64,000 nucleotides of DNA from the NCBI GenBank assembly GCA_937863685.1, contig CALMGM010000005.1, positions 310,001-374,000 on the forward strand. Direction: 5' to 3'. Shown in pieces: positions 761 through 30,850 of the stretch (positions are counted from its first letter, which is position 1; every line of letters starts with the position of its first letter). Below the pieces are notes generated by a model. It did not search any database. It was not told where the DNA came from and saw only the letters and a list, made by a program, of their open reading frames with translations. The DNA is from an uncultured bacterium. GTDB lineage: Bacteria > Edwardsbacteria > AC1 > EtOH8. The position numbers were made by a program, and so were the translations under genes.

Positions 761-928
761 TTACTCAATTTCTACGGTAAACATTTCTTTCTTCATAATT
801 GGCTCTTCCGGCTGGCCATAGCAATAACCATTGCTATCCATCGAATCACCAAACGCCCCCTGTGTAACGCCCTCGATTTCAACGCCGCCCTTTACCGTTA
901 ACAGCTCGTCTCTATTCAGTTCTTTCAT
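761..928 (-). CDS. Double-glycine leader peptide precursor 1 (55 aa)
   Basis: Small secreted-peptide precursor. The N-terminus MKELNRDELLTVKGG is a typical double-glycine leader (conserved L/E/L pattern, GG at 14-15) of the kind C39 peptidase exporters cut. The predicted mature part is 40 residues, acidic, with one Cys in GYCYGQPEEP and ending in MFTVEIE. It keeps the leader of its two neighbours but has a different, longer core, so it may be a second product or an accessory peptide. The SD AAGGAG sits 6 nt before ATG. It is last of three tandem genes and is followed by a strong terminator. Function (bacteriocin, signal or other) cannot be told from sequence. Confidence 0.8.
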   Translation of the reverse strand: MKELNRDELLTVKGGVEIEGVTQGAFGDSMDSNGYCYGQPEEPIMKKEMFTVEIE

Positions 929-1515: not shown

Positions 1516-3705
1516 ATGAAGCCATTGTCTTTTCCTTTTTACCACCAGCATGATGCCATGGATTGCGGCCCGTCCTGTTTAAGGATGATTGCCAAGCATT
1601 ACGGCAAAATATACTCCCTGGAGTTTTTGCGCAACAAATCCTTCATCACCCGGGAGGGTGTATCCCTGTTGGGAATAAGCGACGCCGCCGAGTCCATCGG
1701 ATTTAGGACCATTGGAGCCAAGGCTACCTATGAGCAATTGAAAAAAGAAGCCACCCTGCCGGCCATCGCCCACTGGATGCAGAATCATTTCATCGTGATA
1801 TACAAGATCAAAAAAGATAAGATATTTGTGGCGGACCCGGCTCACGGACTGTTGAACTATCGGAAGGATGAATTTTTAAAAGGCTGGATCGGCACCGGGG
1901 AGAATGAAGGAATTCTTCTTTTGCTGGAGCCCACCCCGCATTTTTATCAGAAGGATGACGAAGCCCCAAAAAGCAAGAGGGGGTTCCGTTTTCTTTTTTC
2001 CTACCTGTTTCCCTACCGCAAATTCATCACCCAGCTTTTAATCGGAATGGTGGCTGGCAGCCTGCTACAGCTGATATTTCCCTTTCTGACCCAGTCTTTG
2101 GTGGATTTCGGAATAAGCAATCAAAATATCGGATTTATATATACCATCCTTGCCGCCCAGCTGATGCTGTTCCTCAGCCGGACCACGGTCGATCTGATCA
2201 GGGGGTGGATCTTGTTGCATATCGGCACCCGGGTCAATATCTCGATCATTTCCGATTTTTTGATAAAATTGATGAAACTGCCTCTGTCGTTCTTTGATAC
2301 TAAATTCATCGGAGACATTCTTCAACGCATCGGAGACCATAGAAGGGTGGAAAATTTTCTCACTTCCTCGACATTGGGGCTGCTTTTCTCGATGGTCAAT
2401 TTGATCATCTTCAGCATTGTTATGGCGGCATACAGCCTGAAGATCCTTTTGGTTTTTTTGATGGGCAGCGTTTTGGTCATCGGTTGGGTGCTGATATTTA
2501 TGAAAAAAAGGAGCGAACTGGATTACAAACGGTTTCGCCAGCTATCCCGGAATCAGAGCAATCTGATACAGCTCATCCAAGGCATGCCGGAAATAAAACT
2601 TAACAACAGCGAAAAGACCAAGCGCTGGGAATGGGAACGGATCCAGGCGGGGTTGTTCAAGATCAACATGAAGGGTTTGGCCATCAACCAGTACCAGCAG
2701 GCCGGTTCTTTGTTTCTTAACGAATTGAAAAATATTCTGATCACCTTCTTGGTGGCCCGGGAGGTGATCTTAGGACATATGACGCTGGGCATGATGCTGG
2801 CCATCTCTTATATTCTGGGGCAGATGAACAGTCCCATAGACCAGTTGATGGGCTTTTTTCAGACCGCCCAGGATGCCAAGCTTAGCCTGGAACGATTGGA
2901 GGAGATCCATCTTCACCAGGAAGAGGAAGATCCGGATGTTGATAAAATCACCATGATGCCTGCGGATCGAAGCCTATTGGTCAATAATATAGGTTTTCAA
3001 TACGAGGGTCCCCAGTCTGAATTCGTCCTGAAAGATCTGAACTTAAGCATTCCCCAGGGAAGGGTCACCGCCATCGTTGGCCCCAGCGGAAGCGGAAAAA
3101 CCACTCTAATGAAACTGCTGCTAAAGTTCTATGAGCCCACCGAAGGTGAAATACGCTTGGGAGATATCAATCTATCCGGCTTCAATACCAGCCTGTGGAG
3201 GCAGAAGTGCGGTGTCGTTATGCAGGATGGATATTTATTTTCAGACACCATAGCCAAAAACATAGTAATGAGCGATGAAAATATTAACCGCGATAAACTT
3301 CTTAATGCTGTCAAGGTGGCAAATATCCAGGACTTTATCGAGACCCTCCCCCTTTCATATACCACTAAGGTGGGGCAGGACGGACACGGGCTTTCCCATG
3401 GTCAAAAACAGCGGTTGCTTATTGCCCGGGCAGTATATAAAGACCCGGATTACCTGTTTTTTGACGAAGCCACAAGTTCTCTTGATGCCAATAATGAAAG
3501 TGTGATCATAAAATATCTTGAGGATTTTTTTAAGGGAAAAACTGTAGTGATAATAGCACACCGCTTGAGTACCGTACAAAAAGCAGATCAGATCGTTGTT
3601 TTGGACAAAGGCCGAATATTGGAACAGGGCACACATCTCGACCTTATAAAGAACAAAGGCGCATATTACAATTTAATACGAAATCAACTGGAGCTTGGAT
3701 CGTAA
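1516..3705 (+). CDS. Peptidase C39-domain ABC exporter for double-glycine peptides
   Basis: Inner-membrane exporter that removes the double-glycine leader and pumps the peptide out (PCAT family). The C39 peptidase domain covers about residues 1-135 with Gln11, catalytic Cys17 in DCGPSC, His91 in NHFIVIY and Asp107 in ADPAHG, so the catalytic set is complete. The ABC membrane domain spans about 165-450. The nucleotide-binding domain has Walker A GPSGSGKTT (522-530), a signature reading LSHGQ (626-630, His for the usual Gly), Walker B YLFFDEAT (646-653) and switch His682. Length (729) is normal for the family. It is divergent from the three precursor genes, and its stop overlaps the next start by one base. 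No strong SD is visible before ATG. Confidence 0.93.
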   Translation: MKPLSFPFYHQHDAMDCGPSCLRMIAKHYGKIYSLEFLRNKSFITREGVSLLGISDAAESIGFRTIGAKATYEQLKKEATLPAIAHWMQNHFIVIYKIKKDKIFVADPAHGLLNYRKDEFLKGWIGTGENEGILLLLEPTPHFYQKDDEAPKSKRGFRFLFSYLFPYRKFITQLLIGMVAGSLLQLIFPFLTQSLVDFGISNQNIGFIYTILAAQLMLFLSRTTVDLIRGWILLHIGTRVNISIISDFLIKLMKLPLSFFDTKFIGDILQRIGDHRRVENFLTSSTLGLLFSMVNLIIFSIVMAAYSLKILLVFLMGSVLVIGWVLIFMKKRSELDYKRFRQLSRNQSNLIQLIQGMPEIKLNNSEKTKRWEWERIQAGLFKINMKGLAINQYQQAGSLFLNELKNILITFLVAREVILGHMTLGMMLAISYILGQMNSPIDQLMGFFQTAQDAKLSLERLEEIHLHQEEEDPDVDKITMMPADRSLLVNNIGFQYEGPQSEFVLKDLNLSIPQGRVTAIVGPSGSGKTTLMKLLLKFYEPTEGEIRLGDINLSGFNTSLWRQKCGVVMQDGYLFSDTIAKNIVMSDENINRDKLLNAVKVANIQDFIETLPLSYTTKVGQDGHGLSHGQKQRLLIARAVYKDPDYLFFDEATSSLDANNESVIIKYLEDFFKGKTVVIIAHRLSTVQKADQIVVLDKGRILEQGTHLDLIKNKGAYYNLIRNQLELGS

Positions 3706-4928
3706 TGGCGGAACCGCGCTTTGAGTTAAGAAGCGAAGAGGTGCAAGATATCCTCAGCTATATTCCACATTGGATCATACGCTGGGGAATAACTGTAATA
3801 TTCTTAACCATATTAATTTTAATTTTCGTCAGTTGGATTATAAAATATCCTGATTCCATACCTGCAACGATAGTTTTAACCACAAAAAATCCGCCCATCA
3901 GCGTTATTGCCAAGAGCAGCGGAACTTTGAAATTATTTGTAAGCGAAAATCAATATGTAACCAAAAACACCTACCTGGCGACCATTGCCAATCCCGATAG
4001 CATGCCCGACATCTTTGAGTTTAAAAAGCAAATCGAGGCTTTTAGAAACATTATCGCCCTGCCCGACAGCGAGACATCCGAACAGGTAAACGACAACAAC
4101 CATAGCCGACAACAGGTCGACTATACCGGATTTCTCCAAAATTATTTTACTGGCAAATATTTTAACCAGGCCAATTATCAGGCCGACAAAATAAAAACCG
4201 TTCTGGCGCAAATAATTTATTATAAGGATTTAAACCGCAAACTGGTACAGCAAAAAAATATTTTATCTCGGGATCTCCTTATTTCAGAAAAGAAGCACCA
4301 AGACGACCAGACCCTGTTCAAGCAGCAGTTGATCTCTGAAGAGGATCGAAATAAGTCCGAAAGCGCCTACCTGCAAAAGCGATATGCCCTGGAACAATCT
4401 AAAAAGGAAATTATTAACAATAAAATAACTTTAGTTGAATATCAGAAGACAGCTTTGGAATTCATAAATCAGCTGACTGTATGGGAAGATCAGTACATAC
4501 TCAAAACCCCGGTCGAAGGTTATGTTTCTTTTTACAAATTCTGGAGCGACAATCAATTTGTAAACGCCGGTGAAGAAGTGATGGCCATTGTGCCTGATTG
4601 CAATGACATAATCGGGAAGATATTCCTGCCTCAGGCCAGCTCCGGGAAAATCAAGATATCACAAAAGGTTAGAATAAAATTCGACAGCTATCCTTATGCC
4701 GAATACGGCTCTGTGGAAGGGCTGGTTGAAAATATTTCCCTGGTATCCCGCGAAAATAAGTATGTGGTGGATGTCGGTTTTAAAAACGGGCTGAACTCAA
4801 GTTATAATAAAAAGATCAGTTTCAAACAGGGGATGCTGGGGAAGGCTGAGATCATAACCGAGGACCTGCGATTGCTGGAGCGATTATTTTATAAATTTAA
4901 ATATCTTTTTACTGATTATTTAAAATAA
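3705..4928 (+). CDS. HlyD-like periplasmic adaptor of the peptide exporter
   Basis: Membrane-fusion protein of a type I-like secretion path. There is one N-terminal transmembrane helix at about residues 25-45 (rich in I/L/F), then a lipoyl/beta-barrel half (SVIAKSSGTLKLFVSENQYV), a long alpha-helical hairpin at about 130-260, and the returning barrel half (LKTPVEGYVSFYKFW). 407 residues is typical. The start overlaps the exporter stop (TAATG), implying translational coupling. In Gram-negative relatives such adaptors join an outer-membrane TolC-like channel. None is encoded next door, so a shared channel elsewhere is inferred. Confidence 0.85.
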   Translation: MAEPRFELRSEEVQDILSYIPHWIIRWGITVIFLTILILIFVSWIIKYPDSIPATIVLTTKNPPISVIAKSSGTLKLFVSENQYVTKNTYLATIANPDSMPDIFEFKKQIEAFRNIIALPDSETSEQVNDNNHSRQQVDYTGFLQNYFTGKYFNQANYQADKIKTVLAQIIYYKDLNRKLVQQKNILSRDLLISEKKHQDDQTLFKQQLISEEDRNKSESAYLQKRYALEQSKKEIINNKITLVEYQKTALEFINQLTVWEDQYILKTPVEGYVSFYKFWSDNQFVNAGEEVMAIVPDCNDIIGKIFLPQASSGKIKISQKVRIKFDSYPYAEYGSVEGLVENISLVSRENKYVVDVGFKNGLNSSYNKKISFKQGMLGKAEIITEDLRLLERLFYKFKYLFTDYLK

Positions 4929-17017: not shown

Positions 17018-17389
17018 ATGTATAGTTCAAAAGATTTTCCGGAGCTAAGTTTATTCATCAAGGATACGGTTGACTGTTTTGAAAAATGGAATATCCTGAT
17101 ACATTACAGCCGACAACCCAAGGCACAGGAAACCATCTTCAGCCTGACCAAACTGACCGGGCGCACCGAAGAGGCAATAAAAAAAGCCATAGACGAACTG
17201 CTTATGCAGGGGGTGCTGTATTCCAATGAAAATTGTAATGACAATTACCATCTGTCATCCGAGAAAGCTCCGATAATCGAAAAATTAAAAAGCGGCATGA
17301 CCGATAAATCTACCCGCCTTCGACTGCTGATGGTGGCCGTAGAATCCATAAGAATAAAAAGCAATACCGTCAAAGGAGATAAAAAATGA
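17018..17389 (+). CDS. Small winged-helix-like protein
   Basis: 123 residues. The middle (IFSLTKLTGRTEEAIKKAID, then ELLMQGVLY) reads like a winged-helix recognition segment: helix, turn, helix and a short wing. Cys residues are few, with one near residue 20. I start at ATG 17018 (AGGA upstream) because an earlier in-frame TTG at 16964 overlaps the sigma-54 promoter. The stop overlaps the ATG of the next gene (ATGA), so it is translationally coupled to the large secreted protein and may regulate it. No named family recognised. Confidence 0.7.
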   Translation: MYSSKDFPELSLFIKDTVDCFEKWNILIHYSRQPKAQETIFSLTKLTGRTEEAIKKAIDELLMQGVLYSNENCNDNYHLSSEKAPIIEKLKSGMTDKSTRLRLLMVAVESIRIKSNTVKGDKK

Positions 17390-20300
17390 AAAAAATAGCG
17401 TTAATCGTTTTATTTGTTGCCGCCATTGCATGTACAGCTCATGCCGTCAAGGACACCTGCAAAATATTTTTGTGGGACAACGACGCCGGCGAGACCGCCC
17501 AGGAAGCCCCGGCCGCCGTCATGGACAAGAATTATAACTCATGCTACGTTTGGGCCGACAAGCGGGATGGGGACTGGAATATATACGGCCGTCTTTGGGG
17601 CCGCAAACCGGAGGCTTTGTCAAACAGCTTTATGATAAACGAAAAGGATAAGGTGCTCCGCGATCAAAAGGCCCCGGATATGGCCGGAAAAACCGGAGAG
17701 TATGTCTTCGTAGTATGGCAGGATTCGATAAGCAAAGAGCCGTACTGGCAGATCTACGGCCGGAAGATGCGGCCTTCCGGCGAGCCCATGTCCGATCAGT
17801 TCCTGATAAATCGGGTGGTGGCCCGAAATGCCAAATTTCCCAAGATCGCCATAAATCCCAAAACTCAGGAATTTGTAGTGGTCTGGCAGGATGACCGCAA
17901 CGGTGATTGGGATATTTATGGCCGTGTGTTCGACGCGGACTGCAAGCCGCTGTCAGATGACGTGAGAATATGCGAAGATCCTGATAAAAAACATCAGGTT
18001 CTGCCTGTGGTTTGCGCAAGTGAAAAAAGTTATGAGATTGCCTGGCAGGACCACCGGACCGATCCCCGCCCCAGCATCTATATGCGCCATATGAAACCCG
18101 ATCTGAACCCCTATGCTGCCGAAGCAACGGTCAATGATAATGTTGAGGTCGCGCATCTTACCCCGGCCATAGCCGCCTCTGACACAGGGTTCTTCACCAT
18201 CACCTGGATCAATTTCACCAATAATCCCAAAGGAAGCATTTATGCTCAGCGCTTTGATCCCGATGCCAAGCCGATAGATAAGAATTTTCAGGTCAACCTG
18301 ACACCATCAGGTGTGCCGTGCCGCATCCCTTCGATCACCATGGGCATTGATAACATGTCCTTTTGGGTCAGTTGGGCTGACTCCACCGGCAGCACCGATC
18401 GCTACCAGATAAAGGCCCGGTACTTTGATTATTTGGGACGTTGGGAAAGCGTGAAACTGGTGAATGAGAACCCGGCCAACGGCCAGCGAGCTCCGTCGGT
18501 TTGCCGTTTCGGGGAATATTTCTCGGTGGCCTGGCTGGATTCCAGCCGCACCGCCGGGCTGGGAGACATCTTCGGCCAATATTTCACCAATTCCACCAAA
18601 GACGAAAAGGACAGCCTGAAGACAGTCGGAGTAAATTACAACTTAAACAGTGATCCCGCTACCGGCCGGAAGATCTGGTATCATCCCAAAAAGAATTATG
18701 ACAATCCATCCACCCCCGGCTGGAACGAGGACCCCATCGCCGAACCGGATTCCATCTATGTTCCACTTGACTCGGCCTATGTCCGGGCATTTAACGAACG
18801 CAACATACCCAACCAGATATTTGTTCAGATCACCGATACCGATATCCTAGAATACGCATGGCGGAAACAAGGAAAACTGAACAGCAGCGACGCTTATGAT
18901 ATCTGCTTCATGGACCTGGGCTATGCCGAGGACGGCAGCACGGCCGGTGTTATCCAGGCAGAACAGCAGGATTCCTTGGAAGATTTTGCTACGGATAGTT
19001 TGAGCAGTTTGATCGTGGCCGGAAACGATTTTGGCGAAATGTATAATACCACCACCTTGTTTTCGTACTTTGGATCCAAATATATCGGACCTGGCAACTC
19101 ATCCGAAATCGGCAATATTCAGAAAATAAACGGCATTGCTGGCACTTTTACCGAAGGAATGCTTTTTGATTATCCTTTCCAACAGGACCCGGATAACTCA
19201 GTTGATATTATTGGGCCCGCGGCCTCTGGATCTCAACTTGTTATGGAAAGCGATGGGCCTGGTAAAATTATTTACGGTCGGGCTACAACCTATGGCGATT
19301 ACTATAAAGATAGCAAAGCTTCTACTCATAAGAACGTATATTTAACCTTCTCTATAGGTTCTTTGAGCAACGGGGTTCATCCCAGCACCGCTTCCGAACT
19401 GACCCGCCGGATATTGGCGTACCAGGGGTTCAACGTGGAACCGGAGCCGATCGTGGACTTGGTGGATTCGGTATACACCGGAATCACTGAGGGATCTGTA
19501 CAGCTTTCATGGACGGATGTCAGCGATGATGCCTTGACCGAGGCTACCTCAAAATACTGGTTAAAATATACAAAATATAACGCTGGGGCCTCTGATCTTG
19601 GGAAAATGAGCACGGAAACCGACTTTATAGATACCGGATTAACTTATTTTCAAACATGGATTCCTACAGCCCCTAAGACCCGGGTGACAAAGAATATTTA
19701 CGGCTTCGCTCCGGGAGATACCTTGATATTTGCCTTAAAAGCTGGAGATGAAAGTTCTCCCACCAGGTGGGGCACCTTGGGCACCGAGCCCAGGGTCGTG
19801 GCATACGGCGATACAATTACTCCGCATACAGTTCGGCTAGGTTATACCTACGGGTGTGTCAACGATTTTGCAAAAAGCGAGCGGATCGACACCCGGATCG
19901 GAACCGTGGGGTCAAGAGATACGCTGTTCACAACTTGGGATGGCTCCAACCTTTACTTGGGTTACAGCAGAAATGATTGGCGAACTGCAGGGGATCTTCT
20001 CCTGTATTTTGATACCCGAACGGGTGGTGCCGATTCCACTTATAAATACAATGGCACTGTTTCTGCTGGTTTTGATGTCAATTTCCATCCGGATTTTTGC
20101 CTCGTTATTGAAGGCACTTCTGCTGTCTTGAAAAAAGCCACCGGCATTAATACCTGGGTGGACTCCATCGCTTCTTACAGCACCTCATATTTATCGCTGG
20201 ACAGCATCAATAAATATACCTACCTTGAGGTTCAGGTGCCTTTTACTTGTTTAAAATATACCGTGGGCAATGTATTTAAGTTTTTAGCGGTTTGCCAGTA

Positions 20301-21024
20301 TGAAACCAATGACAACCCGTGGAACGCTTTTCCCATAACCAATTCCATCACCACAAAAGGCGCTAAGGTCCCGGCCAAATATGGCTCTTATTACGAATTC
20401 AACAGCCTAGCCTCCGGGGTTTCCCCCCGGGTGGTGGCCACTCCCCTGGCAGTGGAACTTTCCCTGTTTACTGCCGCCTACGAACAGGGAAGCGTAAATC
20501 TATTCTGGCAAAGTGGTCTGGAGGAAGACCATAATCTGTGGCTGGTGGAGCGTTCTTCTGACGACGGAAACAATTACGCTAGGATTGACACGATTGCTGG
20601 TACGGGTTCCGGTTCAACCTACAACTATACCGACAATACTGCTGAGGCAAACAAAATCTACCTGTATCGCCTGGGCGCCCAGGATAATCTGGGCACAATA
20701 GAATGGTATGGCCCGGTAGAGGTGAGAGTTCCCAAGCTGGCCGATTCCCATTTATACACCCTAAAAGCCATGCCCAATCCCTTTACTGGCAGCTGCCAAA
20801 TAAGCTATAGCATAAATCAGTCGGGAAGAATCGCCTTAAAGGTATATGATATCTGCGGGCATCTGGTAAAGACCATATTTGACGAGATCAAACAACCCGG
20901 CAGTTACGCCGCCATCTGGACCGGCACCGATGACAATGGCCGGAACCTGGCCAATGGCGTATATTTCTACCGCCTGACTTCCGGACAAAGTTGTCTGACC
21001 CAGAAGATCACGATGCTAAGATAG
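17386..21024 (+). CDS. Large secreted multidomain surface protein with sorting-type tail
   Basis: 1212 residues. Signal peptide 1-21 (IALIVLFVAAIACTAHA). The first 400 residues hold repeated blades with the pattern W-x-D-x-R-x-GDW-x-IYGR and VVWQD, suggesting a beta-propeller of six or so blades. An FN3-like module follows near 695-790, then a region at about 820-1010 with features of a CBM9/DOMON-type beta sandwich (LFTTWDGSNLYLGYS, LLLYFDTRTGGADS). The tail starting at AMPNPFTGS is the FlgD-Ig/type-A sorting-like module. It is controlled by the sigma-54 promoter at 16965 through the coupled upstream gene. Substrate and role unknown; adhesion or polymer binding is conceivable. Confidence 0.8.
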   Translation: MKKIALIVLFVAAIACTAHAVKDTCKIFLWDNDAGETAQEAPAAVMDKNYNSCYVWADKRDGDWNIYGRLWGRKPEALSNSFMINEKDKVLRDQKAPDMAGKTGEYVFVVWQDSISKEPYWQIYGRKMRPSGEPMSDQFLINRVVARNAKFPKIAINPKTQEFVVVWQDDRNGDWDIYGRVFDADCKPLSDDVRICEDPDKKHQVLPVVCASEKSYEIAWQDHRTDPRPSIYMRHMKPDLNPYAAEATVNDNVEVAHLTPAIAASDTGFFTITWINFTNNPKGSIYAQRFDPDAKPIDKNFQVNLTPSGVPCRIPSITMGIDNMSFWVSWADSTGSTDRYQIKARYFDYLGRWESVKLVNENPANGQRAPSVCRFGEYFSVAWLDSSRTAGLGDIFGQYFTNSTKDEKDSLKTVGVNYNLNSDPATGRKIWYHPKKNYDNPSTPGWNEDPIAEPDSIYVPLDSAYVRAFNERNIPNQIFVQITDTDILEYAWRKQGKLNSSDAYDICFMDLGYAEDGSTAGVIQAEQQDSLEDFATDSLSSLIVAGNDFGEMYNTTTLFSYFGSKYIGPGNSSEIGNIQKINGIAGTFTEGMLFDYPFQQDPDNSVDIIGPAASGSQLVMESDGPGKIIYGRATTYGDYYKDSKASTHKNVYLTFSIGSLSNGVHPSTASELTRRILAYQGFNVEPEPIVDLVDSVYTGITEGSVQLSWTDVSDDALTEATSKYWLKYTKYNAGASDLGKMSTETDFIDTGLTYFQTWIPTAPKTRVTKNIYGFAPGDTLIFALKAGDESSPTRWGTLGTEPRVVAYGDTITPHTVRLGYTYGCVNDFAKSERIDTRIGTVGSRDTLFTTWDGSNLYLGYSRNDWRTAGDLLLYFDTRTGGADSTYKYNGTVSAGFDVNFHPDFCLVIEGTSAVLKKATGINTWVDSIASYSTSYLSLDSINKYTYLEVQVPFTCLKYTVGNVFKFLAVCQYETNDNPWNAFPITNSITTKGAKVPAKYGSYYEFNSLASGVSPRVVATPLAVELSLFTAAYEQGSVNLFWQSGLEEDHNLWLVERSSDDGNNYARIDTIAGTGSGSTYNYTDNTAEANKIYLYRLGAQDNLGTIEWYGPVEVRVPKLADSHLYTLKAMPNPFTGSCQISYSINQSGRIALKVYDICGHLVKTIFDEIKQPGSYAAIWTGTDDNGRNLANGVYFYRLTSGQSCLTQKITMLR

Positions 21025-21072: not shown

Positions 21073-24000
21073 TCACAATCCGTTTATCCTGACATCATAA
21101 AATTGTTGACGCAACTCCTCCGGCAAATTAGCTTTTATGTCTTCCAGTATCTCCACAGCCCTTGTTTTTTCTAGTTGGGCTTGATCCGAGAGTTCTTTTA
21201 ATTGATACAATTTCCCTGCATAGTTGTGTGCTTTCGATTGAAGTTCTGGAGATTCTGTTTTATCAGCCATATCCCGAGCATCTTTCAAATAATCTTCCGC
21301 TTCTTTGATATTACCGTCGATCAAAGCTTTTTGTACATACAATAAATAAATGCGGCCCAGCAATATTTTATCCTTCAACTCCTGGGCAAGAACCAAAGAT
21401 TCGGACAACGGTTGAACCATTTCGGCCTTTTCATTCTTACTCATAAACAAATGTGCCATATTTAAAAGGCCATAAGCCATCTCTCTTTTATTTTGTGTTT
21501 TTTCGGCCAGGCCTAATAAACGAGTAGCATGCTCTTCGGCGCCTGCAAGATCCCCGGTATCAATTTTAAATTCCACCAGTGCACGTGCAGCCGCAAGAAT
21601 CACTTCGGGGTCGCGCACCTGACGAGCTTCTTCTAAAGCTTCAGTTATATTTCTAGCAGCCTGTTCAATCTGGCCTAAAAGATGATAAAGAGCACCGAGG
21701 TTGGCTTTAATATAGGCCTGCATGCGTGGATCACTCATTTTAACTGAGATAGATGTCGCCTGTTTAAATTCAGATAAAGATTCGGCGTATTTCCCCTGTA
21801 AAGCTAGGTCCTGTCCTAAATTCCTCCTGATTTCCACTTCATTAGTTGAATCTTTGATTTCCAAGGATATCTTCAGAGCAGCAGTATGTTGTTCGATTGC
21901 GGAGTTGGCTTCTCCCCAGATCTGGTGAATAGAGCCTATATTGCTGTAAATATTCATTTGCTGGGCTATTTCTCCGATTTCTCTGGCGGATTTTAACGCT
22001 TGGTCGTAGTTGCCCTGGGCATTCAGATAATTTCCCAGAATAAATTGAATGTTTCCCATATTAAAACCAGCCAAAGATTCTATCCTGCGATCGCCGATTT
22101 TTTGTGCGGTGCTTAAAGCAGCTTTGAAATGTATTTCGGACTTTTCAATTTCTCCAGTCATTAAAAACAGATTGCCTAGATTATTATTATATGCTGCAAT
22201 TCCTTCAAGATAATTTATTTCCTGGGCCAACTTCAAAGCTATTTGGTTATAATCCAGTGATTTATTTACATCGCCAATTAATTCATATGCTTGGGCCAAA
22301 TTAGAATTTAACCTGGCAATGTGTTTTTTCCCTGTTTTTTCATCAAATACTTTTAAGGCCAATTGAAAATTTTCTATGGCTTTTGCCGCATCGCCTCTTC
22401 TTAAATACGAAAGCCCCTGATTCTGTAAAGCCAGAGCCTGCGATTCTTTATCTTCATTACAGCGAGTATCTTTTAAAATCTTTTGCCAGACAGACTGGGC
22501 TCGTTCCGATTGACCCAGCATATCATAGGTTATACTTGCTGTAAGCAAATATTTTCTTTCAGCCTTATATTCTTTTTCCTTGCGCGCAATCCTGGCGGCC
22601 TTGTTGAAGTTCCCAAGAGCCTTTTCACGCTGCCCAATCAGCCGGTAAATTGCCCCCTGAGCTCCCAAGACCTCGGCCGTTTCCAGCAACATCTCTTTGG
22701 TCTGTTTTATGACTTTAAGCACGAACAAACATTTTTCGTAAAATTCTACGGCCTCCGGATTGGCATAAAGCCCGCGGGACTTATCTCCCGCCCGGTGCAA
22801 ATAGGATACCGCCTTATCCTGGTGGCTGCTATTGTAATAGTGGTGGGCCAGATCCTCCAGATGAAAGAACAGATTGTCACGATACTCGTTCTCCAGGGTC
22901 ATGGCTACCTTACCGTGAAGTTCCTTTCTCCTCTGTTTGAGCAAGGTGGAGTAAGCCGCCTCGTGTGTGGTGGTGGAATGAAATTCGTAGACCCGCCTGG
23001 TATCTATCAGCTTGGAATAAAGCAGGCCCTCGAAATGTTCCAGGTTATCCAGCAGGGATTGGATCTTTTCTTCCGGCTGCTTAAGCAGCTTGGCCAGAAC
23101 CGTTCGGTCGAATTCCTTGCCAATAACCGCCGAATACTGCAGGACCCTTCTCATCTCCTCTCCCAGCTTGTCGATCCTTCCCAATACCACCGAAGCCACG
23201 GTATTGGGAAGGGTCATTTTTCCGAATCTTTTGGAAGGAACCAGACTTTCCCCCTCGCGCTTCACCAGCCGCCGTGAAATCAGATGCCGGATCACTTCCT
23301 CGATGAACAACGGGTTCCCCTCGGTCCTTTCCAAAAGCTTGTTCAACACCTGATCCTCAACATCCGAAACTGCCGCCAGGGCCGAGACCATCTGCCAGGC
23401 TTCCTGTTTTCCCAACGGCTTCAGGTTAATATTAAGGCAATAGGATTTGCCGATAAAGGGAAGGGCCAGCTCCGGCCGAAAATCGGCACAGATCAATAGC
23501 GACTGTTCGGCGACAGCATCCACCAAATGCTCCAATAGTTCCAGGCTTAGAGTGTCGGCCCACTGCAAATCCTCAAAGGCAATAACCAGCGGTTGTTTTT
23601 TGGACAAGCGAAGAAAAAGCTCCCGAATACCTTCGAAAGTTTTTCGCTTGCGTTTTTCGGGATCCAACCCATCTATTTCGGGAAAAGACAATCCCAGCAA
23701 AGATCCTAAAAACGATTCGAAATCTCCCAGATCCAGCATATGAAGTATTTCCTGGACCTTTTCAAGTTTCTTTTCATTGCTGTCCTTTTCCTCGATGTTG
23801 AATACCAGGTTCATCTGCCTGATAAACGGCAGATAGGCCACGTTATTGGAATAGGAATGGCATTTCCCTTTGGTGAATTTGAATCCCTGGTCCCTGGCCA
23901 GCAATTCCAGTTCCTTGGCGATCCTGGATTTACCCACCCCGGGGTCCCCGGTGATGGCCACCACCTGCCCTTTTGAGTCCTTGGCCCTGGCGATGGCCTG

Positions 24001-24837
24001 GTTTATGCCATCCATCTCGGCCATGCGTCCCACCAGCTTGATGCTGCCCGCCCTCAATGTGCTGGCCTGGCCGGCCTGATCCATCCGACCCTGGATCAGA
24101 TAGACATTCTGAGGCTTGGATTTTCCCTTCACCATCACCGGTTTGAGCTTCTTCAGCTTGATCTTGCCTTTTACCTGCCGGTAGGTATTCTCCCCAATGA
24201 CACATTCCCGGGCGGTGGCCACTTTCTCCAGCCGGGCCGCCAGATTGACCCCGTCGCCGATGACGGTATATTCCATTCTTTCCTTGGAGCCGACATTGAG
24301 GGCCACTACTTCGCCGGTATTCAGACCGATGCTCATAGCCAGGTCCATTTTTCTCTCGGCGCTGAAGCGGTCCATGGCCTCCAGCATTTCGATGGCTGCC
24401 AAGCAGGCCCGCAAGGGGTCGTCCTCATGGGCCACCGGAGCGCCAAAAAGCACCATCAGCGCGTCTCCCATGAATTTATCGATGTGACCGCCGTAGCGGG
24501 AGGCTATCTCGACCATGGTGTCGAAGTACTGGTTGACCACCTCCACCACCTGCTCAGGATCCATGGTTTCCGACATAGCGGTAAAGCCCGACAGATCCCC
24601 GAAAAGAACTGTGACCTGGCGGCGCTCCCCTTCCACCTTGACTCCGTCCGGGTTCAGCAGGATCTTATCGATCACCCTTTTGGGAAGGTATTTTTGTATG
24701 GAGGATATAATCTTCTCCACCTGACCCAGCTTGTCAAAAACAGCCTGTTCCAGATTTCCCTGCAACAAGCTGTTTCCCCGGCCGGTTATATGATCCAGCT
24801 TTTCCAGTATTCTTTTTATCAATTCCTGCTGTTCCAT
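21073..24837 (-). CDS. Class III adenylyl cyclase fused to AAA ATPase and TPR array
   Basis: 1254-residue signalling protein, no membrane helices. The cyclase domain at about 70-250 has metal ligands Asp81 (LFGDLSGFT) and Asp125 (KFMGDALMVLFG), substrate-binding Lys121, Thr191 (class IIIb style) and the transition-state pair Asn198/Arg202 (VNLAARLE), so it should be active. A STAND/AAA module follows with Walker A GDPGVGKS (297-304) and an AFEDLQWAD-type Walker B. From about 700 to the end there are many tetratricopeptide repeats. I start at ATG 24837, five bases after AAGGAG, seven codons inside the longest frame. It is followed by CNB-domain genes, which would read its cyclic nucleotide. 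Confidence 0.9.
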   Translation of the reverse strand: MEQQELIKRILEKLDHITGRGNSLLQGNLEQAVFDKLGQVEKIISSIQKYLPKRVIDKILLNPDGVKVEGERRQVTVLFGDLSGFTAMSETMDPEQVVEVVNQYFDTMVEIASRYGGHIDKFMGDALMVLFGAPVAHEDDPLRACLAAIEMLEAMDRFSAERKMDLAMSIGLNTGEVVALNVGSKERMEYTVIGDGVNLAARLEKVATARECVIGENTYRQVKGKIKLKKLKPVMVKGKSKPQNVYLIQGRMDQAGQASTLRAGSIKLVGRMAEMDGINQAIARAKDSKGQVVAITGDPGVGKSRIAKELELLARDQGFKFTKGKCHSYSNNVAYLPFIRQMNLVFNIEEKDSNEKKLEKVQEILHMLDLGDFESFLGSLLGLSFPEIDGLDPEKRKRKTFEGIRELFLRLSKKQPLVIAFEDLQWADTLSLELLEHLVDAVAEQSLLICADFRPELALPFIGKSYCLNINLKPLGKQEAWQMVSALAAVSDVEDQVLNKLLERTEGNPLFIEEVIRHLISRRLVKREGESLVPSKRFGKMTLPNTVASVVLGRIDKLGEEMRRVLQYSAVIGKEFDRTVLAKLLKQPEEKIQSLLDNLEHFEGLLYSKLIDTRRVYEFHSTTTHEAAYSTLLKQRRKELHGKVAMTLENEYRDNLFFHLEDLAHHYYNSSHQDKAVSYLHRAGDKSRGLYANPEAVEFYEKCLFVLKVIKQTKEMLLETAEVLGAQGAIYRLIGQREKALGNFNKAARIARKEKEYKAERKYLLTASITYDMLGQSERAQSVWQKILKDTRCNEDKESQALALQNQGLSYLRRGDAAKAIENFQLALKVFDEKTGKKHIARLNSNLAQAYELIGDVNKSLDYNQIALKLAQEINYLEGIAAYNNNLGNLFLMTGEIEKSEIHFKAALSTAQKIGDRRIESLAGFNMGNIQFILGNYLNAQGNYDQALKSAREIGEIAQQMNIYSNIGSIHQIWGEANSAIEQHTAALKISLEIKDSTNEVEIRRNLGQDLALQGKYAESLSEFKQATSISVKMSDPRMQAYIKANLGALYHLLGQIEQAARNITEALEEARQVRDPEVILAAARALVEFKIDTGDLAGAEEHATRLLGLAEKTQNKREMAYGLLNMAHLFMSKNEKAEMVQPLSESLVLAQELKDKILLGRIYLLYVQKALIDGNIKEAEDYLKDARDMADKTESPELQSKAHNYAGKLYQLKELSDQAQLEKTRAVEILEDIKANLPEELRQQFYDVRINGL

Positions 24838-24854
24838 TGCTACTCCTTTGTTTT

Positions 24855-25193
24855 TCACTCACTGAGCGTAACTTTGGATTTCTTTACCCTGCGATCATCT
24901 TCATCCATGGCTCTCAGCAGTTTTTTCATCTGAAACTCCTGACTGGTGAAATAGTCGTGCTGTTTCTCCACCCAGCATTGGATCCTCTCCGAAAGCTCCA
25001 TCACCTGCTCGGAGGCCAGGTCTCCATCCTTTTGGGCATCGATGATTTTATCCAGCAGTTTCGGGCCCAGATCCAGATCGCTTTCCCTTTTTAATCTTTC
25101 CAAAAAAACCACCAATTTAAGATAATAAGCATAGTTCTTTTTTTGGGCTGGGGTGGCATGAGTCTTGGCTGTTTTCGAGAGAGGTTTATTCAT
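24855..25193 (-). CDS. Small protein of unknown function in the cyclase operon
   Basis: 112 residues, highly charged and probably all helical (PAQKKNYAYYLKLVVFLERL, WVEKQHDYFTSQEFQMKKLL). No signal peptide, Cys cluster or recognised domain. It lies 17 nt upstream of the cyclase start and downstream of a CNB gene on the same strand, so co-transcription is likely and a role in tuning the cyclase is possible but unproven. Confidence 0.65.
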   Translation of the reverse strand: MNKPLSKTAKTHATPAQKKNYAYYLKLVVFLERLKRESDLDLGPKLLDKIIDAQKDGDLASEQVMELSERIQCWVEKQHDYFTSQEFQMKKLLRAMDEDDRRVKKSKVTLSE

Positions 25194-25228
25194 ATCTGTT
25201 GCTCCAATCTGCAGATAGCCATTATTTC

Positions 25229-25257
25229 TTGACAGAAAAGGCTTCTTTTGCTATGCT
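25229..25257 (+). promoter_or_regulatory. Possible antisense promoter beneath the CNB gene
   Basis: TTGACA (25229-25234), 17-nt spacer, TATGCT (25252-25257). It points right, antisense to the CNB gene at 25273 and towards the CNB gene at 25764. It may be chance. Confidence 0.35.
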
Positions 25258-25272
25258 ATATGATGACCGGGT

Positions 25273-25728
25273 TCAGTTGTCCTTATCCCTGAACTTTTCA
25301 TCGGTAGTCCGGAGACGATGCAACGCCACTTTGACCAGGGTTATCAGAAGCTTGGAAGTTATCCGGGGATCTGTTTCCAGCATCTGTTCAAAGACCTTCT
25401 TGGTGATTACCACCAGTTCCCCATCTTCGGCTATCCTGGCAGTAGCTGAACGGGGCTGGGAGTCCAGCAGGGACATCTCACCGAAATAGCTGCCCGGCCC
25501 GAGAGTGGCCAGCAATAGTTCGTCTTTGTCCTTCAGGTTCTTATATATCCCTACCTTGCCCGAGTGGATGAGATACATCACCTCACCCGGAGTGCCTTCA
25601 AAAAACAGGGTTCTGCCGGCTCGGTAGGACCTTAGGAAGATCAGTTTGGATATTCGTTCCAGTTCCTCCGGGGTAAGGGCACTGAACAAGTTATTGCCCT
25701 TAAGAACGTCAATTATATTGGTCATCAT
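25273..25728 (-). CDS. Single-domain cyclic-nucleotide-binding protein
   Basis: 151 residues comprising one CAP_ED/CNB fold and a helical tail, with no DNA-binding domain. The phosphate-binding cassette FGEMSLLDSQPRSATA carries the conserved Glu and Arg that contact the cyclic phosphate and ribose. Start at 25728 with GAGGAGG just upstream (a second ATG follows immediately). It is divergent from another CNB gene with only 35 bp between their starts, and upstream of the cyclase on the same strand. Likely a cAMP-responsive switch acting through protein contacts (inference). Confidence 0.88.
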   Translation of the reverse strand: MMTNIIDVLKGNNLFSALTPEELERISKLIFLRSYRAGRTLFFEGTPGEVMYLIHSGKVGIYKNLKDKDELLLATLGPGSYFGEMSLLDSQPRSATARIAEDGELVVITKKVFEQMLETDPRITSKLLITLVKVALHRLRTTDEKFRDKDN

Positions 25729-25763
25729 GGCCTCCTCACAAAAATATACGAAAGGATAAGTAA

Positions 25764-26222
25764 ATGGATGAAGTAACCGGTCTTAGGCAATGTCTTTTGT
25801 TTCAAGAACTGACCGATGAAGAATTCACTAAAATTACCCAGATAATGTCCACCGAAGCCGAAAGTTTCATGCCCGGGGCAATGATCTGTCAAAAGGATGC
25901 ACCCGGGGACAGTCTTTATATGGTAAAAAGCGGCAAGGTGCAGATCAGCCTGCCATCCGATCAGACGGACATTATCTTGGCCGAACTCGGTCCGGGAAAA
26001 TTCTTTGGCGAAATGTCATTGCTGGATAAATCGCCCAGATCGGCCAACGTAGTATCCCTGGAACAGACCGAGATATTCGTGCTTACCAGAAAACACATTG
26101 CTTATCTGGTGGAGAAGGAATCCAAGATCGCTGCCAAAGTGATGCTGGCCTTGTCCCGGGTACTATCTGCCAGAATCAGGGTATTGAATGAGCGGATCGA
26201 AGGTATCCTTTCGGCCGGGTAA
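25764..26222 (+). CDS. Second single-domain cyclic-nucleotide-binding protein
   Basis: 152 residues, one CNB domain with cassette FGEMSLLDKSPRSANV, again with the binding Glu and Arg intact and no output domain. SD AAGGA is nine bases before ATG. It is similar in architecture to the divergent neighbour but clearly not a recent copy. It ends two bases before the convergent PHP gene. Confidence 0.87.
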   Translation: MDEVTGLRQCLLFQELTDEEFTKITQIMSTEAESFMPGAMICQKDAPGDSLYMVKSGKVQISLPSDQTDIILAELGPGKFFGEMSLLDKSPRSANVVSLEQTEIFVLTRKHIAYLVEKESKIAAKVMLALSRVLSARIRVLNERIEGILSAG

Positions 26223-26224
26223 TT

Positions 26225-26917
26225 TCATACTTGAAACATTCGATCCTCGGGAATGTTCAATTCCTTGACCATGGCCAAAGAATAATCCAAACGGCATGCC
26301 GTTTCCCGGCAATGGCCGTCGGAACCCAGAGAGAATCTGGCCCCGGCCGCCAGGGCATCGCTTACTATTTCCGGATACGGCAGTTCCCAGCGGGAGTTGA
26401 TCTCCAAAGCAAAATCGTATTTCAGAGCCAGCGCAATAAGCCGCTGGCTCCATTCTTTATCAAGGATTCTGCCGGCTGCTGGCCTGAGTTTTAACGGAAG
26501 AAGCCCGGGATGGGCCAGTATATCGAATCTGTGCTGCCGGGCCTTTATTTCGATCAGATCCAGCATCTTATTTATCAATACCGCGGAGGGCGGCAGCCGA
26601 GCTTCGCTGTCAAAAAAATTCAAATCGCCAATCGAATGCACGCCCCCGATCAGATAATCGCATCTATCCAGCAATTCCCGGGAGATACTGACCTTGGTTC
26701 CAAGGTCCAGTTCGGCTGATTTTAACACCGGAAGTCCTTCCAGAGCATTAAGATATTGCTCAAATTGATCGTTGCCGTTTATCTGAAAGCTGCCTTCGCC
26801 GCAGTGGTCGGAGATGCCCGCCTGATATCCCTTGGCATAGGCCAGGGAGTATACTTCTTCCGGAGTAAGCTTCCCGTCGGATAATTTTGTATGAATATGA
26901 AGGTCTTTTATGATCAA
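26225..26917 (-). CDS. PHP-domain phosphoesterase (histidinol-phosphatase-like)
   Basis: 230 residues with the PHP metal motifs: DLHIHTKLSDG at the N-terminus, ISDHCG, a middle His in DILAHPG and GSDGH near the C-terminus. The size fits small PHP enzymes annotated as histidinol phosphatase or as nucleotide/sugar-phosphate phosphatases. No histidine biosynthesis gene is nearby, so the substrate is open; a link to nucleotide second messengers is only suggested by context. The start is TTG at 26917, and an in-frame stop lies immediately upstream. Confidence 0.82.
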   Translation of the reverse strand: MIIKDLHIHTKLSDGKLTPEEVYSLAYAKGYQAGISDHCGEGSFQINGNDQFEQYLNALEGLPVLKSAELDLGTKVSISRELLDRCDYLIGGVHSIGDLNFFDSEARLPPSAVLINKMLDLIEIKARQHRFDILAHPGLLPLKLRPAAGRILDKEWSQRLIALALKYDFALEINSRWELPYPEIVSDALAAGARFSLGSDGHCRETACRLDYSLAMVKELNIPEDRMFQV

Positions 26918-27002
26918 TTATTAAGACCGCTTCTATTGTATAACTTATTCTTGCCAGAAGTCAATTATAAAATCAGACTGGCGTTCAAATTATTCCCGTT
27001 TT

Positions 27003-30000
27003 CTAGTAATTGACCTTGTGTCGTGTATCGCTCATTCTCCGGCTTGAGGTCCGCTCCAAGCTTTTGGCAAAGTACAGCTGTTCGCCCAGAAGATTTTTAA
27101 AATCATCTTTATGAAGCCGAAGCACTAGGCATTCCGTCCGGGCCACTACATCAGCCGTGCGCGGGACATCAAGCAGCAGGGCTATTTCGCCGAAATATTC
27201 CCCGGGGCCCAGCTCGGCCACTTTGTTCTTCTGCCCTTCCCTGGTCACCAAAACGTCCAGCCGGCCCTCTTTTATTATAAAGAAGCTGTCGCCGATCTCC
27301 CCCTGTGAGATCACCGGCTGCCCTGGAGCATATCGCTCCGGAACCAGCCGGGAGGCAGCCATGGCCACCTGGGCCGGGGCAAATTCGGCAAATAACGGCA
27401 GTCTTATCAGGAACCCCCGGTTTTCGATCAGGCGGTCTATCCGGAGAGACAGATCCACCTTCTTGCTCATCAGGGCCTCAAAATCATTCCTTTCCAGGAC
27501 CAGCAGTGAACAATCAGCCACGGCCTTTACCGAAGCGGTGCGGGGAACGTTTTTGATCAGGGCGATCTCCCCGAAATAATCCCCGCGGGATAACCTGGCC
27601 GCCATCAGGTCTGGCTCCCCCTGGCGGATGATCAGCACCTCCACCTGGCCGGATTTGACGATATAGAACTTGTCCCCCTGCTCCCCCTGGCGGATGATCA
27701 TCTCCCCGGAACGGACCCTTTCTTCCTTAAGATGGGAGTAAAACAGAGCGGTCTCCTCTTCGCCCAGCTCCCAAAATTTTGCCACTCCGGCAATCACATT
27801 CTGGGCGTCGCGCTTTTCCTGTTTGAGGTTGGCTACCGCCATATCCTTGGCCCATAAAGAATCCTTCATTAAATACTGCTGGGCGATCTCCCGTTCCTCC
27901 CAATAAAGGCTCTGATAGGCTGTTTTTATGGTATTATGGGCAAAATAGACGCCCACTTCATGGAACAGGTAGTTCAATATTTCATCCAGCATTCCGCTGA
28001 AGGCCCGGCTCCGCTCCACGATGCCGGTGTTGCGTTCGAATCGTTCCTCGCTTTCGTTGCCGTAGAGCCGGATGGGCCATTTCTTTTCGATCATGATCAG
28101 GTTGAGCCGGTCATCCATGGCCCGGGCCTGGCCCTCTCCGAAGAACGAGGCAAAATAATTACGGGACATTCGGTATATCTTTATGGCGGCCTGCCGCATC
28201 CTTCTCTTCTCGGAAGCCGCCGGTTCAAAAGTGGCGCTTTCCGGCAGCCACCTGGCGCTTTTTATGATAAGATACAGCCAGAATACGGCGAACACCAGTA
28301 GCAGGGCAGTAAGGAATCCGAAATTATACAGCGAAAACAATAGTATGGTGTTCCAGGAAATAATCCCCAGCAGGAAATATATCCAAAAATACTCCAGCGA
28401 CGATCCAATATTATGCCACACCAGGGACAACAGCATCAACAAGGCCGCGGAGGAAAATAATATGGCCAGAGTGCGCATAGTGGACATCCCGTGAAAGTGC
28501 CCAACCAGCACCAGTGTCCCGAACCACAGCCCCCCCCATAATACCCTCTGCCACTGCCGCCAGCGGCGCAGGCTGGAAAACGAGAATTGGGTGTAGATGG
28601 CGACAAACAGCGCCGCCGAACCCACCAGCCAGATTGCCGGCCGGAAGCCGACCGGCAGTATTTTGATGAACAAGCTGCCCAATGCCGCTAACAAAAGCCC
28701 CAGCAGGACCAGCCATAGCGAAGAACCCTGGTAATATGCGTAAACCCGCTGGGAAAGCGCCCCCAGCCCCAGGGCGAACAGGATTGCGATGACCGTTCCC
28801 GGCCAGCCTCCGATATGGCTGTAGATAAATGAGCCCAGCAGGCAGAAGCCGAACAGCACCCCGGCCATTATTGCCGGCTGGTTGTATATCCTGTCGGTGA
28901 AGCCCTTCCAGAGATTCAGAGCCATCAGCCTTATCTTCTTGTAAGCCGCCCCCAGCACTGCCAGGGCGATCGCTCCGGCCCCCAATAAAAGGATCAACCG
29001 CAGCTGCTGACTAGTGGCATTGAGGAATTGGCTGCCCACCTGCTGGGCCCTTATCCGCCAGAAATATCCCACAATTACCAGGGCCAAGGCCGACCAAACA
29101 ATGGCCGCCAGGCCGTAGGCCGTAAAGACCTTGTCCTGCCAGTCAAAAGTTTCCTTGGACCTGATCTTGGGCCACAATTGTTTTTTGACAAAATTGGCAG
29201 CCCTGGCCTTCAGGCCCGGTATCTCCAGCCAGTCCATCAACACATAATAACCGTCCAGCTCCAGCAGTGGATTGAGATTAAGAAATACCGTCAGATAGGA
29301 AAGGAAAGCAAATTTATACAGCAGGGGATTGATAAAAAGATGGGGAAACAGCAGGATCACTCCCGACATGATCCCGGCGATAAAAGCCTGGGAAAACGGG
29401 CCGATCAGTGATATCAGGAGTCTTTTCCGTTTTGGCAGCAGCCAGGAATCGGTTATATCGACATAGAAAGAGGGGAAAAAAGTATTGATTATCACCCCGC
29501 CGCTGTTGATCCGTCTGCCGTAATGTTTGCAGGCCAAGGCATGGGACAGTTCATGGGCCACGATGGAAACATAATTCAACATTACCAGAATCACCAGCCC
29601 CAAAACCACCGATCCGGATGATTTGAGCAGACTGTATCCGCCGGTCCGGAACAAAAAGGCAAAGATGAAAAAACCCGCCAAGGACAATATCCCGGCGATT
29701 ATCTGCACCGGCCGGAAATAGAACACCCGGAAACCTTTTTTGTACAGCCAGGTGATGCCGCTGTCAAGGCCTGCGATCGGCCATTGCCGGCGGGGCAGGG
29801 ATTTCATGAAATCTACCATTTTGATGACCGGCTTATCCAGCTTGATAATCTTTAGAAGCCGGTCATAGAATGACCTGGGACTTTCGGAGAGAAATCCTCC
29901 TTTGAAAAGCTCCTGCACCAGCGTCCCCAGCCGGGAAAAGGCCAAGGCCCCGTACTTCCTGAAATATTCCACCAGAACTTCCTGGACCATCCGGCTGCCG

Positions 30001-30218
30001 TCCAGCAGGGAAAACAGAAAATGATCCTTGACCGATAAGCGGATATAGCCTTCTCCTCCGGGGGATCGCAGAACATAATAATCCTTGCCGTCGCGGCTGA
30101 CAAACCGCACCTCTTCGCACCCCGGGCGGACCGCCGGGCGGCTTTTGGCAAAATCCATCTTGTCGGTCAGTTTATGCCAGAATGATGATGCGGGAGGATT
30201 ATTTATTTGAGGGTCCAT
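27003..30218 (-). CDS. PqqD-like / M50 membrane protease with two C-terminal CNB domains
   Basis: 1071-residue integral membrane protein. Residues about 40-115 resemble the PqqD/RRE-like start found in peptide zinc-metalloprotease proteins. The M50 (site-2 protease-like) core follows with HELSH (222-226) in a membrane helix and a second metal ligand Asp322 in LLELDGYYVLMDW. About a dozen further hydrophobic helices run to about 670. Two CNB domains close the protein, with cassettes FGEIALIKNVPRTASV and FGEIALLLDVPRTADV, both with the binding Glu and Arg. The design implies an intramembrane protease or peptide-processing enzyme gated by cyclic nucleotide. It lies in the same cluster as the cyclase. 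Confidence 0.85.
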   Translation of the reverse strand: MDPQINNPPASSFWHKLTDKMDFAKSRPAVRPGCEEVRFVSRDGKDYYVLRSPGGEGYIRLSVKDHFLFSLLDGSRMVQEVLVEYFRKYGALAFSRLGTLVQELFKGGFLSESPRSFYDRLLKIIKLDKPVIKMVDFMKSLPRRQWPIAGLDSGITWLYKKGFRVFYFRPVQIIAGILSLAGFFIFAFLFRTGGYSLLKSSGSVVLGLVILVMLNYVSIVAHELSHALACKHYGRRINSGGVIINTFFPSFYVDITDSWLLPKRKRLLISLIGPFSQAFIAGIMSGVILLFPHLFINPLLYKFAFLSYLTVFLNLNPLLELDGYYVLMDWLEIPGLKARAANFVKKQLWPKIRSKETFDWQDKVFTAYGLAAIVWSALALVIVGYFWRIRAQQVGSQFLNATSQQLRLILLLGAGAIALAVLGAAYKKIRLMALNLWKGFTDRIYNQPAIMAGVLFGFCLLGSFIYSHIGGWPGTVIAILFALGLGALSQRVYAYYQGSSLWLVLLGLLLAALGSLFIKILPVGFRPAIWLVGSAALFVAIYTQFSFSSLRRWRQWQRVLWGGLWFGTLVLVGHFHGMSTMRTLAILFSSAALLMLLSLVWHNIGSSLEYFWIYFLLGIISWNTILLFSLYNFGFLTALLLVFAVFWLYLIIKSARWLPESATFEPAASEKRRMRQAAIKIYRMSRNYFASFFGEGQARAMDDRLNLIMIEKKWPIRLYGNESEERFERNTGIVERSRAFSGMLDEILNYLFHEVGVYFAHNTIKTAYQSLYWEEREIAQQYLMKDSLWAKDMAVANLKQEKRDAQNVIAGVAKFWELGEEETALFYSHLKEERVRSGEMIIRQGEQGDKFYIVKSGQVEVLIIRQGEPDLMAARLSRGDYFGEIALIKNVPRTASVKAVADCSLLVLERNDFEALMSKKVDLSLRIDRLIENRGFLIRLPLFAEFAPAQVAMAASRLVPERYAPGQPVISQGEIGDSFFIIKEGRLDVLVTREGQKNKVAELGPGEYFGEIALLLDVPRTADVVARTECLVLRLHKDDFKNLLGEQLYFAKSLERTSSRRMSDTRHKVNY

Positions 30219-30241: not shown

Positions 30242-30850
30242 TTATTTTCTATAGAGTCCCTGTTTACTGATGTATTGTCCGACCCTGCCAGGCACCAGGA
30301 ATTCTATGCTGGAACCCCGGGACGCTCTTTCCCTTATATTTGAAGCGCTTATTTCTATAAGCGGAATGGGCAGCAGGATGATCTTTTTCCTCCATTTGAC
30401 CTGGATATCGGCGGTCCGGTAACCGGGGCGAACCATGACCACCACCCGGGCCATTTTGAAGATTCCCTCCGGATCCCTCCAACTGGACAGGGTCAACGCC
30501 TGATCCAGTCCCATCAACAGATATAATTCCGAATCAGGATAAATGCTCCGGACCTTCTTCAGGCTTTCCACGGTATAGGAGGCACAATTGGAAGAAAGTT
30601 CGATATCGGAGACAGCAAAATGTCTGCTGCCGGCGATGCCCAGCTTCACCATTTTATACCTGTCCAGCGGCGGGGATATCTTCCAGTTGCATTTATGGGG
30701 CGGCTTCCCTGCCGGGACAAAGACCACCTGTTCCAGCTCCAGGGATTCCAAAGCGTTCTGGGCGGCTATCAGATGGCCGTAATGGAGCGGATCGAAGGTT
30801 CCCCCGAAAAGCCCCAGCCGGCTCTTCTTATTTTTTCGGGTAGCTGCCAT
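30242..30850 (-). CDS. nadD: Nicotinate-nucleotide adenylyltransferase
   Basis: NAD synthesis enzyme joining NaMN and ATP. 202 residues, nucleotidyltransferase motif GGTFDPLHYGHL at 15-26 and the C-terminal ISASNIRERASRG (the usual I-S-S-T/S-x-I-R) motif. Also FVPAGKPPHK, typical for NadD. It sits ten bases downstream of the bamD-like gene. Confidence 0.93.
   Translation of the reverse strand: MAATRKNKKSRLGLFGGTFDPLHYGHLIAAQNALESLELEQVVFVPAGKPPHKCNWKISPPLDRYKMVKLGIAGSRHFAVSDIELSSNCASYTVESLKKVRSIYPDSELYLLMGLDQALTLSSWRDPEGIFKMARVVVMVRPGYRTADIQVKWRKKIILLPIPLIEISASNIRERASRGSSIEFLVPGRVGQYISKQGLYRK

Follow-up and report, generated by a model that had tools for sequence, protein, structure and literature searches.

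M50 metalloproteases are known from RiPP maturation, with EpeP, TglG and TmoG as examples (review PMC10885120). The nearest precedent for a module of nucleotide-binding type on an intramembrane protease is the group of site-2 proteases (S2Ps) with a CBS domain such as SpoIVFB, whose CBS domain is non-essential for cleavage (PMC11486902). A canonical cAMP- or cGMP-binding CNB domain is defined by a Glu and an Arg in its cassette together with the coupled beta2-beta3 Gly (PMC2246266); the main text of the same CNB survey mentions neither protease nor peptidase. A literature search with CNB and M50, PqqD and M50, and daptide, covering subscription journals thinly, returned no description of the architecture reported here and no cAMP-switched intramembrane protease. 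As far as we are aware, direct switching by cAMP is not known for any intramembrane protease.

The window, i.e. the whole stretch of 64,000 nucleotides that was analysed, encodes a protein in which a PqqD/RRE-like domain, an M50 core, an extra transmembrane (TM) region, a linker domain and two CNB domains are fused (Table 1). We give about an even chance to the view that in Edwardsbacteria this fusion is a cAMP-controlled, RRE-equipped intramembrane M50 protease. An earlier, sequence-only reading had placed a cyclase-AAA-TPR protein, two stand-alone CNB proteins and a PqqD-like/M50/CNB-CNB fusion within 9 kb, and all of these open reading frames are present. It had missed a 112-aa protein and a PHP protein as well as two parts of the fusion, its extra TM region and its linker domain.

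Table 1. Features of the fusion gene and its surroundings, in window coordinates
Feature	Position	Strand	Basis or remark
Class III cyclase-AAA_16-TPR protein	21073..24858	(-)	Pfam; probable start ATG 24837
112-aa protein between CNB1 and cyclase	24855..25193	(-)	conserved 10/10
CNB1, stand-alone, intact cassette	25273..25728	(-)	conserved 10/10 (L080 copy incompletely aligned)
CNB2, stand-alone, intact cassette	25764..26222	(+)	conserved 10/10
PHP-domain protein, member of cyclase block	26225..26917	(-)	PF02811; beside CNB2/CNB1/cyclase in 10/10
PqqD/RRE-M50-TM-linker-CNB-CNB fusion, 1071 aa	27003..30218	(-)	orthologue in 10/10 family genomes
Fusion: PqqD/RRE-like winged helix, residues 35-106	29901..30116	(-)	model, PDB fold match, TIGR04248 in N-type homologues
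Fusion: HELSH zinc/catalytic motif, residues 222-226	29541..29555	(-)	HExxH in 31/31 aligned fusions
Fusion: NLNPLLELDG motif, residues 314-323, third zinc ligand D322	29250..29279	(-)	P-x4-DGY in 31/31 aligned fusions
Fusion: extra membrane region, residues 404-654, ~8-10 TM helices	28257..29009	(-)	full-length model, hydropathy
Fusion: linker domain, residues 667-800, motif AYxSLYWEERE	27819..28220	(-)	alignment; no Pfam match
Fusion: CNB-A, residues 826-918; G848, E884, R893	27465..27743	(-)	Pfam, alignment
Fusion: CNB-B, residues 953-1046; E1011, R1020	27081..27362	(-)	Pfam, alignment
nadD, usual upstream neighbour of fusion	30242..30850	(-)	similarity to window gene, adjacent in 8/10 genomes

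Protease core, RRE-like domain and CNB pair of the fusion

Orthologues of the fusion occur in all ten family genomes with 54-87% identity; the closest named relative is a Candidatus Edwardsbacteria MAG with 86% identity over the fusion. The M50 site-2-protease core (HELSH, NLNPLLELDGYY) gave a weak, sub-threshold match in Pfam with E = 0.058. With the NCBIfam model daptide_HExxH it scored 134.9 bits (3.7e-39), which is below the curated cut-off of 300 bits, and with YydH/LiaK 61.3 bits (1.1e-16), again below the curated cut-off of 225 bits. The second M50 motif with its Asp zinc ligand (NxxPxxxxDG) is present, and HExxH and NPxxxxDG are kept in the fusions of all ten Edwardsbacteria.

An AlphaFold2 model of the PqqD-M50 part, calculated from a 31-sequence alignment, had a mean pLDDT of 86 and a pTM of 0.78, with HELSH in a predicted TM helix. 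Its best fold match in the PDB was the M. jannaschii site-2 protease 3b4r (prob 1.00, E = 2e-3), which was also retrieved by a profile search with the fusion (1.4e-7). Motifs and S2P fold together mark the fusion as an M50 (site-2-type) metalloprotease with predicted activity. The N-terminal domain of the model consists of three strands followed by three helices, the order of PqqD and RRE domains, and matched the fold of TbiB1 (prob 0.98-0.99), an RRE whose structure was determined together with its leader peptide. The same domain is matched by TIGR04248 (PqqD-related ScmD) in N-type homologues, in which the CNB domains precede PqqD-M50. Thus the domain is RRE-like by fold, and leader-peptide binding is a putative function.

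The model of the full-length fusion (pLDDT 75.6) displays a helical membrane region, the linker domain and the CNB pair, with about 14 readable TM helices versus 13 peaks in a hydropathy scan, so that the topology is provisional. Its pTM of 0.42 makes the relative placement of the domains unreliable and the coupling path unreadable. The alignments behind both models contained solely sequences of the window and of the loci.

Pfam detected PF00027 twice in the fusion (E = 2.7e-50) and once each in the stand-alone proteins CNB1 (4e-27) and CNB2 (4e-23). That all four CNB domains keep Glu and Arg, as had been noted before, is correct, and the Gly is present in all four as well. Among the Edwardsbacteria fusions Gly, Glu and Arg were found in 10/10 CNB-A and in 9/9 readable CNB-B domains, the tenth being masked sequence. 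The tandem CNB resembles PKA regulatory subunits by fold, and PKA and PKG are among the best matches by sequence. With intact cassettes in the readable family members and PKA/PKG regulatory domains as nearest solved relatives, binding of a cyclic nucleotide by the CNB pair is plausible. From this ligand we assume that the pair is cytosolic.

The cyclase block and its distance from the fusion

The cyclase protein was assigned by Pfam (PF00211, 2.8e-30; AAA_16, 1.3e-24; TPR) and has an orthologue in all ten family genomes. Translation probably starts at the conserved ATG at residue 8 rather than at the GTG at 24858. D88, D132, K128, T198, N205 and R209 were invariant among 8 aligned orthologues, as were K310/S311 and E429/D430 of the AAA domain; the earlier description of the cyclase as catalytically complete is borne out. 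K128 aligns with a Lys in the adenylyl-cyclase chain of 6fht and with a Glu in 2w01; we take 6fht to represent adenylyl cyclase activity and 2w01 to be the guanylyl cyclase Cya2. With two metal-binding Asp, an adenine-type Lys and the transition-state Asn and Arg, the protein has the hallmarks of a class III adenylyl cyclase, and cAMP is its predicted product. The score with the TOMM kinase/cyclase model TIGR03903 was 297.6 bits against a cut-off of 705.75 bits, the match beginning at profile position 281. Other cyclases are encoded in the genome, which has five matches to PF00211 and 10 to PF00027. The 112-aa protein had no family match in Pfam, NCBIfam or PADLOC. On the far side of the cyclase, at 17386-21024 (+), lies a gene that is convergent with the cyclase gene wherever the family contigs continue; it codes for a large protein, probably secreted and with a C-terminal tail resembling FlgD.

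Gene maps showed two conserved blocks. Block A (PHP, CNB2, CNB1, 112-aa protein, cyclase) is present in 10/10 family genomes. Block B comprises the fusion, nadD, a BamD-like gene and yifB, the fusion adjoining nadD in 8/10; these gene names are tentative, being taken from a reading of the sequences. The four genomes of the window's genus have the two blocks side by side; in G005 roughly 6 kb separates them, and in the remaining five (G004, G006, G007, G008, G009) they are unlinked. The contigs of G008 and G009 are short, and the genes beside either block there exclude the other block. Because the two blocks are separate in these maps, the fusion and this cyclase do not form a fixed pair. Block A would be a cAMP module of its own, which may contribute to the pool that the fusion senses. 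The conserved cyclase-fusion neighbourhood which the sequence-only reading had looked to thus holds in the genus and nearly so in G005, but not in half of the family.

These maps bear on two further explanations. One takes the 21-30 kb region as a single dedicated pathway in which the cyclase specifically drives the fusion protease. The adjacency in the genus and the short distance in G005 are what it would predict, but the five unlinked genomes, the conservation of block A without the fusion and the further cyclases of the genome make it very unlikely. The other is a Pycsar-like anti-phage pair, in which the product of the cyclase would activate a CNB-bearing membrane effector. PADLOC indeed matched the cyclase to PycC (1.3e-29) and the CNB domains of the fusion to PycTIR/effector models (8.8e-23), and the homologous locus L167 has a two-gene layout. 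Yet the PADLOC matches span just the shared cyclase and CNB domains, and the adenine-type residues of the cyclase argue against a cyclic-pyrimidine product. Furthermore, the fusion is no patchy island, occurring in 10/10 family genomes and beside nadD in 8, and it shares no operon with the cyclase: CNB2 lies between them on the + strand, and the two are unlinked in 5/10 genomes. We regard a Pycsar-like function as extremely improbable.

No RiPP cluster was seen around the fusion, the neighbours being nadD, the BamD-like gene, yifB and PHP. At the start of the window a short ORF at 761-928 (-) with a leader-like LxxVKGG segment lies beside a C39-peptidase-type ABC transporter at 1516-4928 (+) and an HlyD-like gene. 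A link of the fusion to this peptide locus at 1 kb, raised as a possibility by the sequence-only reading, was rejected: full-length orthologues of the C39-ABC exporter were found in just 4/10 family genomes, and these lie on different contigs or at a great distance from the fusion.

Homologues beyond the family

When the linker domain was used to search 350 Chloroflexota genomes, 24 gave a match, and 20 loci were then read; in this sample the domain, with its AYxSLYWEERE motif, is found in frames about as large as the fusion. Twenty Chloroflexota proteins (19 of the read loci and L002) have intact protease motifs and have lost the cassette Arg in both CNB domains. The loop Gly is mostly lost too in both CNB domains of these proteins, while a further Chloroflexota protein, L129, retains a canonical CNB-B. 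The zinc motifs are invariant throughout the 10 Edwardsbacteria and 20 Chloroflexota proteins. Loss of the Arg as a consequence of cyclase loss was ruled out, the respective genomes carrying 4-19 cyclase domains. No cyclase was located near the fusion in the Chloroflexota loci read, and the sampled neighbourhoods contained no RiPP cluster; they comprised a PurL-like protein, an SDR, sugar-binding/LacI-type proteins and a response regulator. Neighbours were searched for about 9 kb on each side where the contigs allowed, by BLAST with the window proteins, so that distant cyclases could escape.

The sequence-only reading had named homologues without the Arg as evidence against control by cyclic nucleotide. 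They exist, yet in the tree they form a single derived clade (100/100), and the cassettes of the family are intact. The clade is relevant to the main rival explanation, in which the CNB pair would serve as a structural element, for dimerisation or for targeting: its members retain the CNB fold without the Arg, and in a related case SpoIVFB lacking the CBS domain still processes Pro-sigmaK (PMC11486902). However, Edwardsbacteria and the C-type fusions L161 and L162 retain two fully canonical cassettes, and drift would not preserve them. We consider a structural role unlikely, although it is the most serious of the rivals.

In a wider sample PqqD-M50 was present in 47/386 genomes, and part of the 47 were read. 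The C-type fusions L161 and L162 have intact active-site motifs as well as cassettes; HlyD-type proteins were also among those read. N-type proteins (L163, L164, L167, L003-L006, L181-L185) group together in the tree (98/99), apart from the C-type; the positions of the long-branch rows L166, L170, L186, L008 and L169 were not trusted. That CNB domains are combined with PqqD-M50 in several other bacterial lineages, and in two orders, speaks for selection of this combination. A class III cyclase is encoded in 49/50 genomes carrying a CNB-M50 protein, so that missing co-occurrence, the second finding named beforehand as adverse, was not encountered. Such cyclases are common in general, and the support is weak because Chloroflexota with degenerate CNB domains also have many cyclases.

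At least five relatives combine canonical CNB domains with a broken M50 site (L165, L167, L170, L185, L186). L170 (3-2195) and L186 (2629-5439) are PqqD-M50-CNB-CNB proteins without HExxH and are likely pseudoproteases, as judged from their sequences. At L165 (9037-10742) an unfused, overlapping gene pair codes for a stand-alone CNB protein with an intact cassette, followed by a PqqD-M50 protein with HQLVH, where the catalytic Glu is lost. At L167 (9328-12926) a cyclase gene immediately precedes a CNB-CNB-PqqD-M50 gene whose motif reads QELGH, its first His being replaced by Gln; this layout resembles the Pycsar-like two-gene arrangement.

The broken sites could mean that the CNB domains sense a cyclic nucleotide while the membrane part is mainly an RRE-guided receptor or exporter, with proteolysis being secondary. 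The extra TM region of the fusion would fit, and EpeP is believed to have a dual role, cleaving its peptide and also exporting it (PMC10885120). On the other hand, the invariance of the zinc motifs in the Edwardsbacteria and Chloroflexota proteins speaks against a secondary role of proteolysis, and we rate this explanation as quite improbable. Activity at either end was lost separately, so across the superfamily proteolysis does not strictly require cyclic-nucleotide binding, nor binding proteolysis. The preservation of both sets of motifs in Edwardsbacteria suggests that here both functions are in use.

Proposed mechanism and comparison with known systems

Taken together, control of the protease by cyclic nucleotide, as put forward in the sequence-only reading, retains a real architecture, plausible binding and a CNB/PqqD-M50 pairing that recurs in two orders, but it loses the 9-kb cluster as one pathway. 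For the cAMP-controlled protease that we favor, we infer three things: cAMP as the ligand, gating of the protease by its binding, and the RRE-like domain as the binding site of a substrate. The fusion would reside in the cytoplasmic membrane with the cytosolic RRE-like domain for substrate recognition at one end and the tandem CNB, similar to a PKA regulatory subunit, at the other. cAMP from the class III cyclases of the cell would bind to the CNB pair, and the movement so caused would reach the membrane part by way of the conserved linker domain. This would switch whether a membrane-associated protein or peptide that the RRE-like domain recognises is cleaved or released.

A more general view is possible, if somewhat doubtful: a widespread, so far undescribed superfamily of second-messenger-gated intramembrane proteases, in which cyclic nucleotides gained control of RRE-M50 cores in two domain orders, perhaps through two independent fusion events, providing a direct switch from cAMP to intramembrane proteolysis. 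Were this so, cAMP would act on membrane proteolysis or peptide release at the post-translational level and not through CRP. The natural homologues with just one activity lost make the coupling directly testable.

With respect to known systems, the M50 core of the fusion is of the same type as that of YydH/EpeP (LiaK) and of the daptide HExxH proteases of RiPP maturation, and the daptide model covers the PqqD-like domain and the M50 core of several homologues. In contrast to these proteases, the fusion stays below the curated cut-offs, shows no RiPP cluster among its neighbours and adds the TM region, the linker domain and the CNB pair. The 'peptide zinc metalloprotease' type PqqD-M50-HlyD (e.g. 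L007, L083, L085, L168) has the PqqD-M50 core in common with the fusion, but carries an HlyD-type adaptor in place of the CNB domains. TIGR03896, a bacteriocin-type transport-associated protein, matches the CNB pair below cut-off, whereas no protease domain is matched. SpoIVFB and the M. jannaschii S2P share with the fusion the S2P fold and a C-terminal cytosolic module of nucleotide-binding type (PMC11486902), yet this module is CBS instead of CNB, an RRE is lacking and the TM helices are fewer. Finally, the regulatory domains of PKA and PKG have the tandem of CNB-A and CNB-B with canonical cassettes and are about 24-31% identical to the pair of the fusion in fold matches. There the pair serves kinase regulation, whereas here it is joined to a protease.
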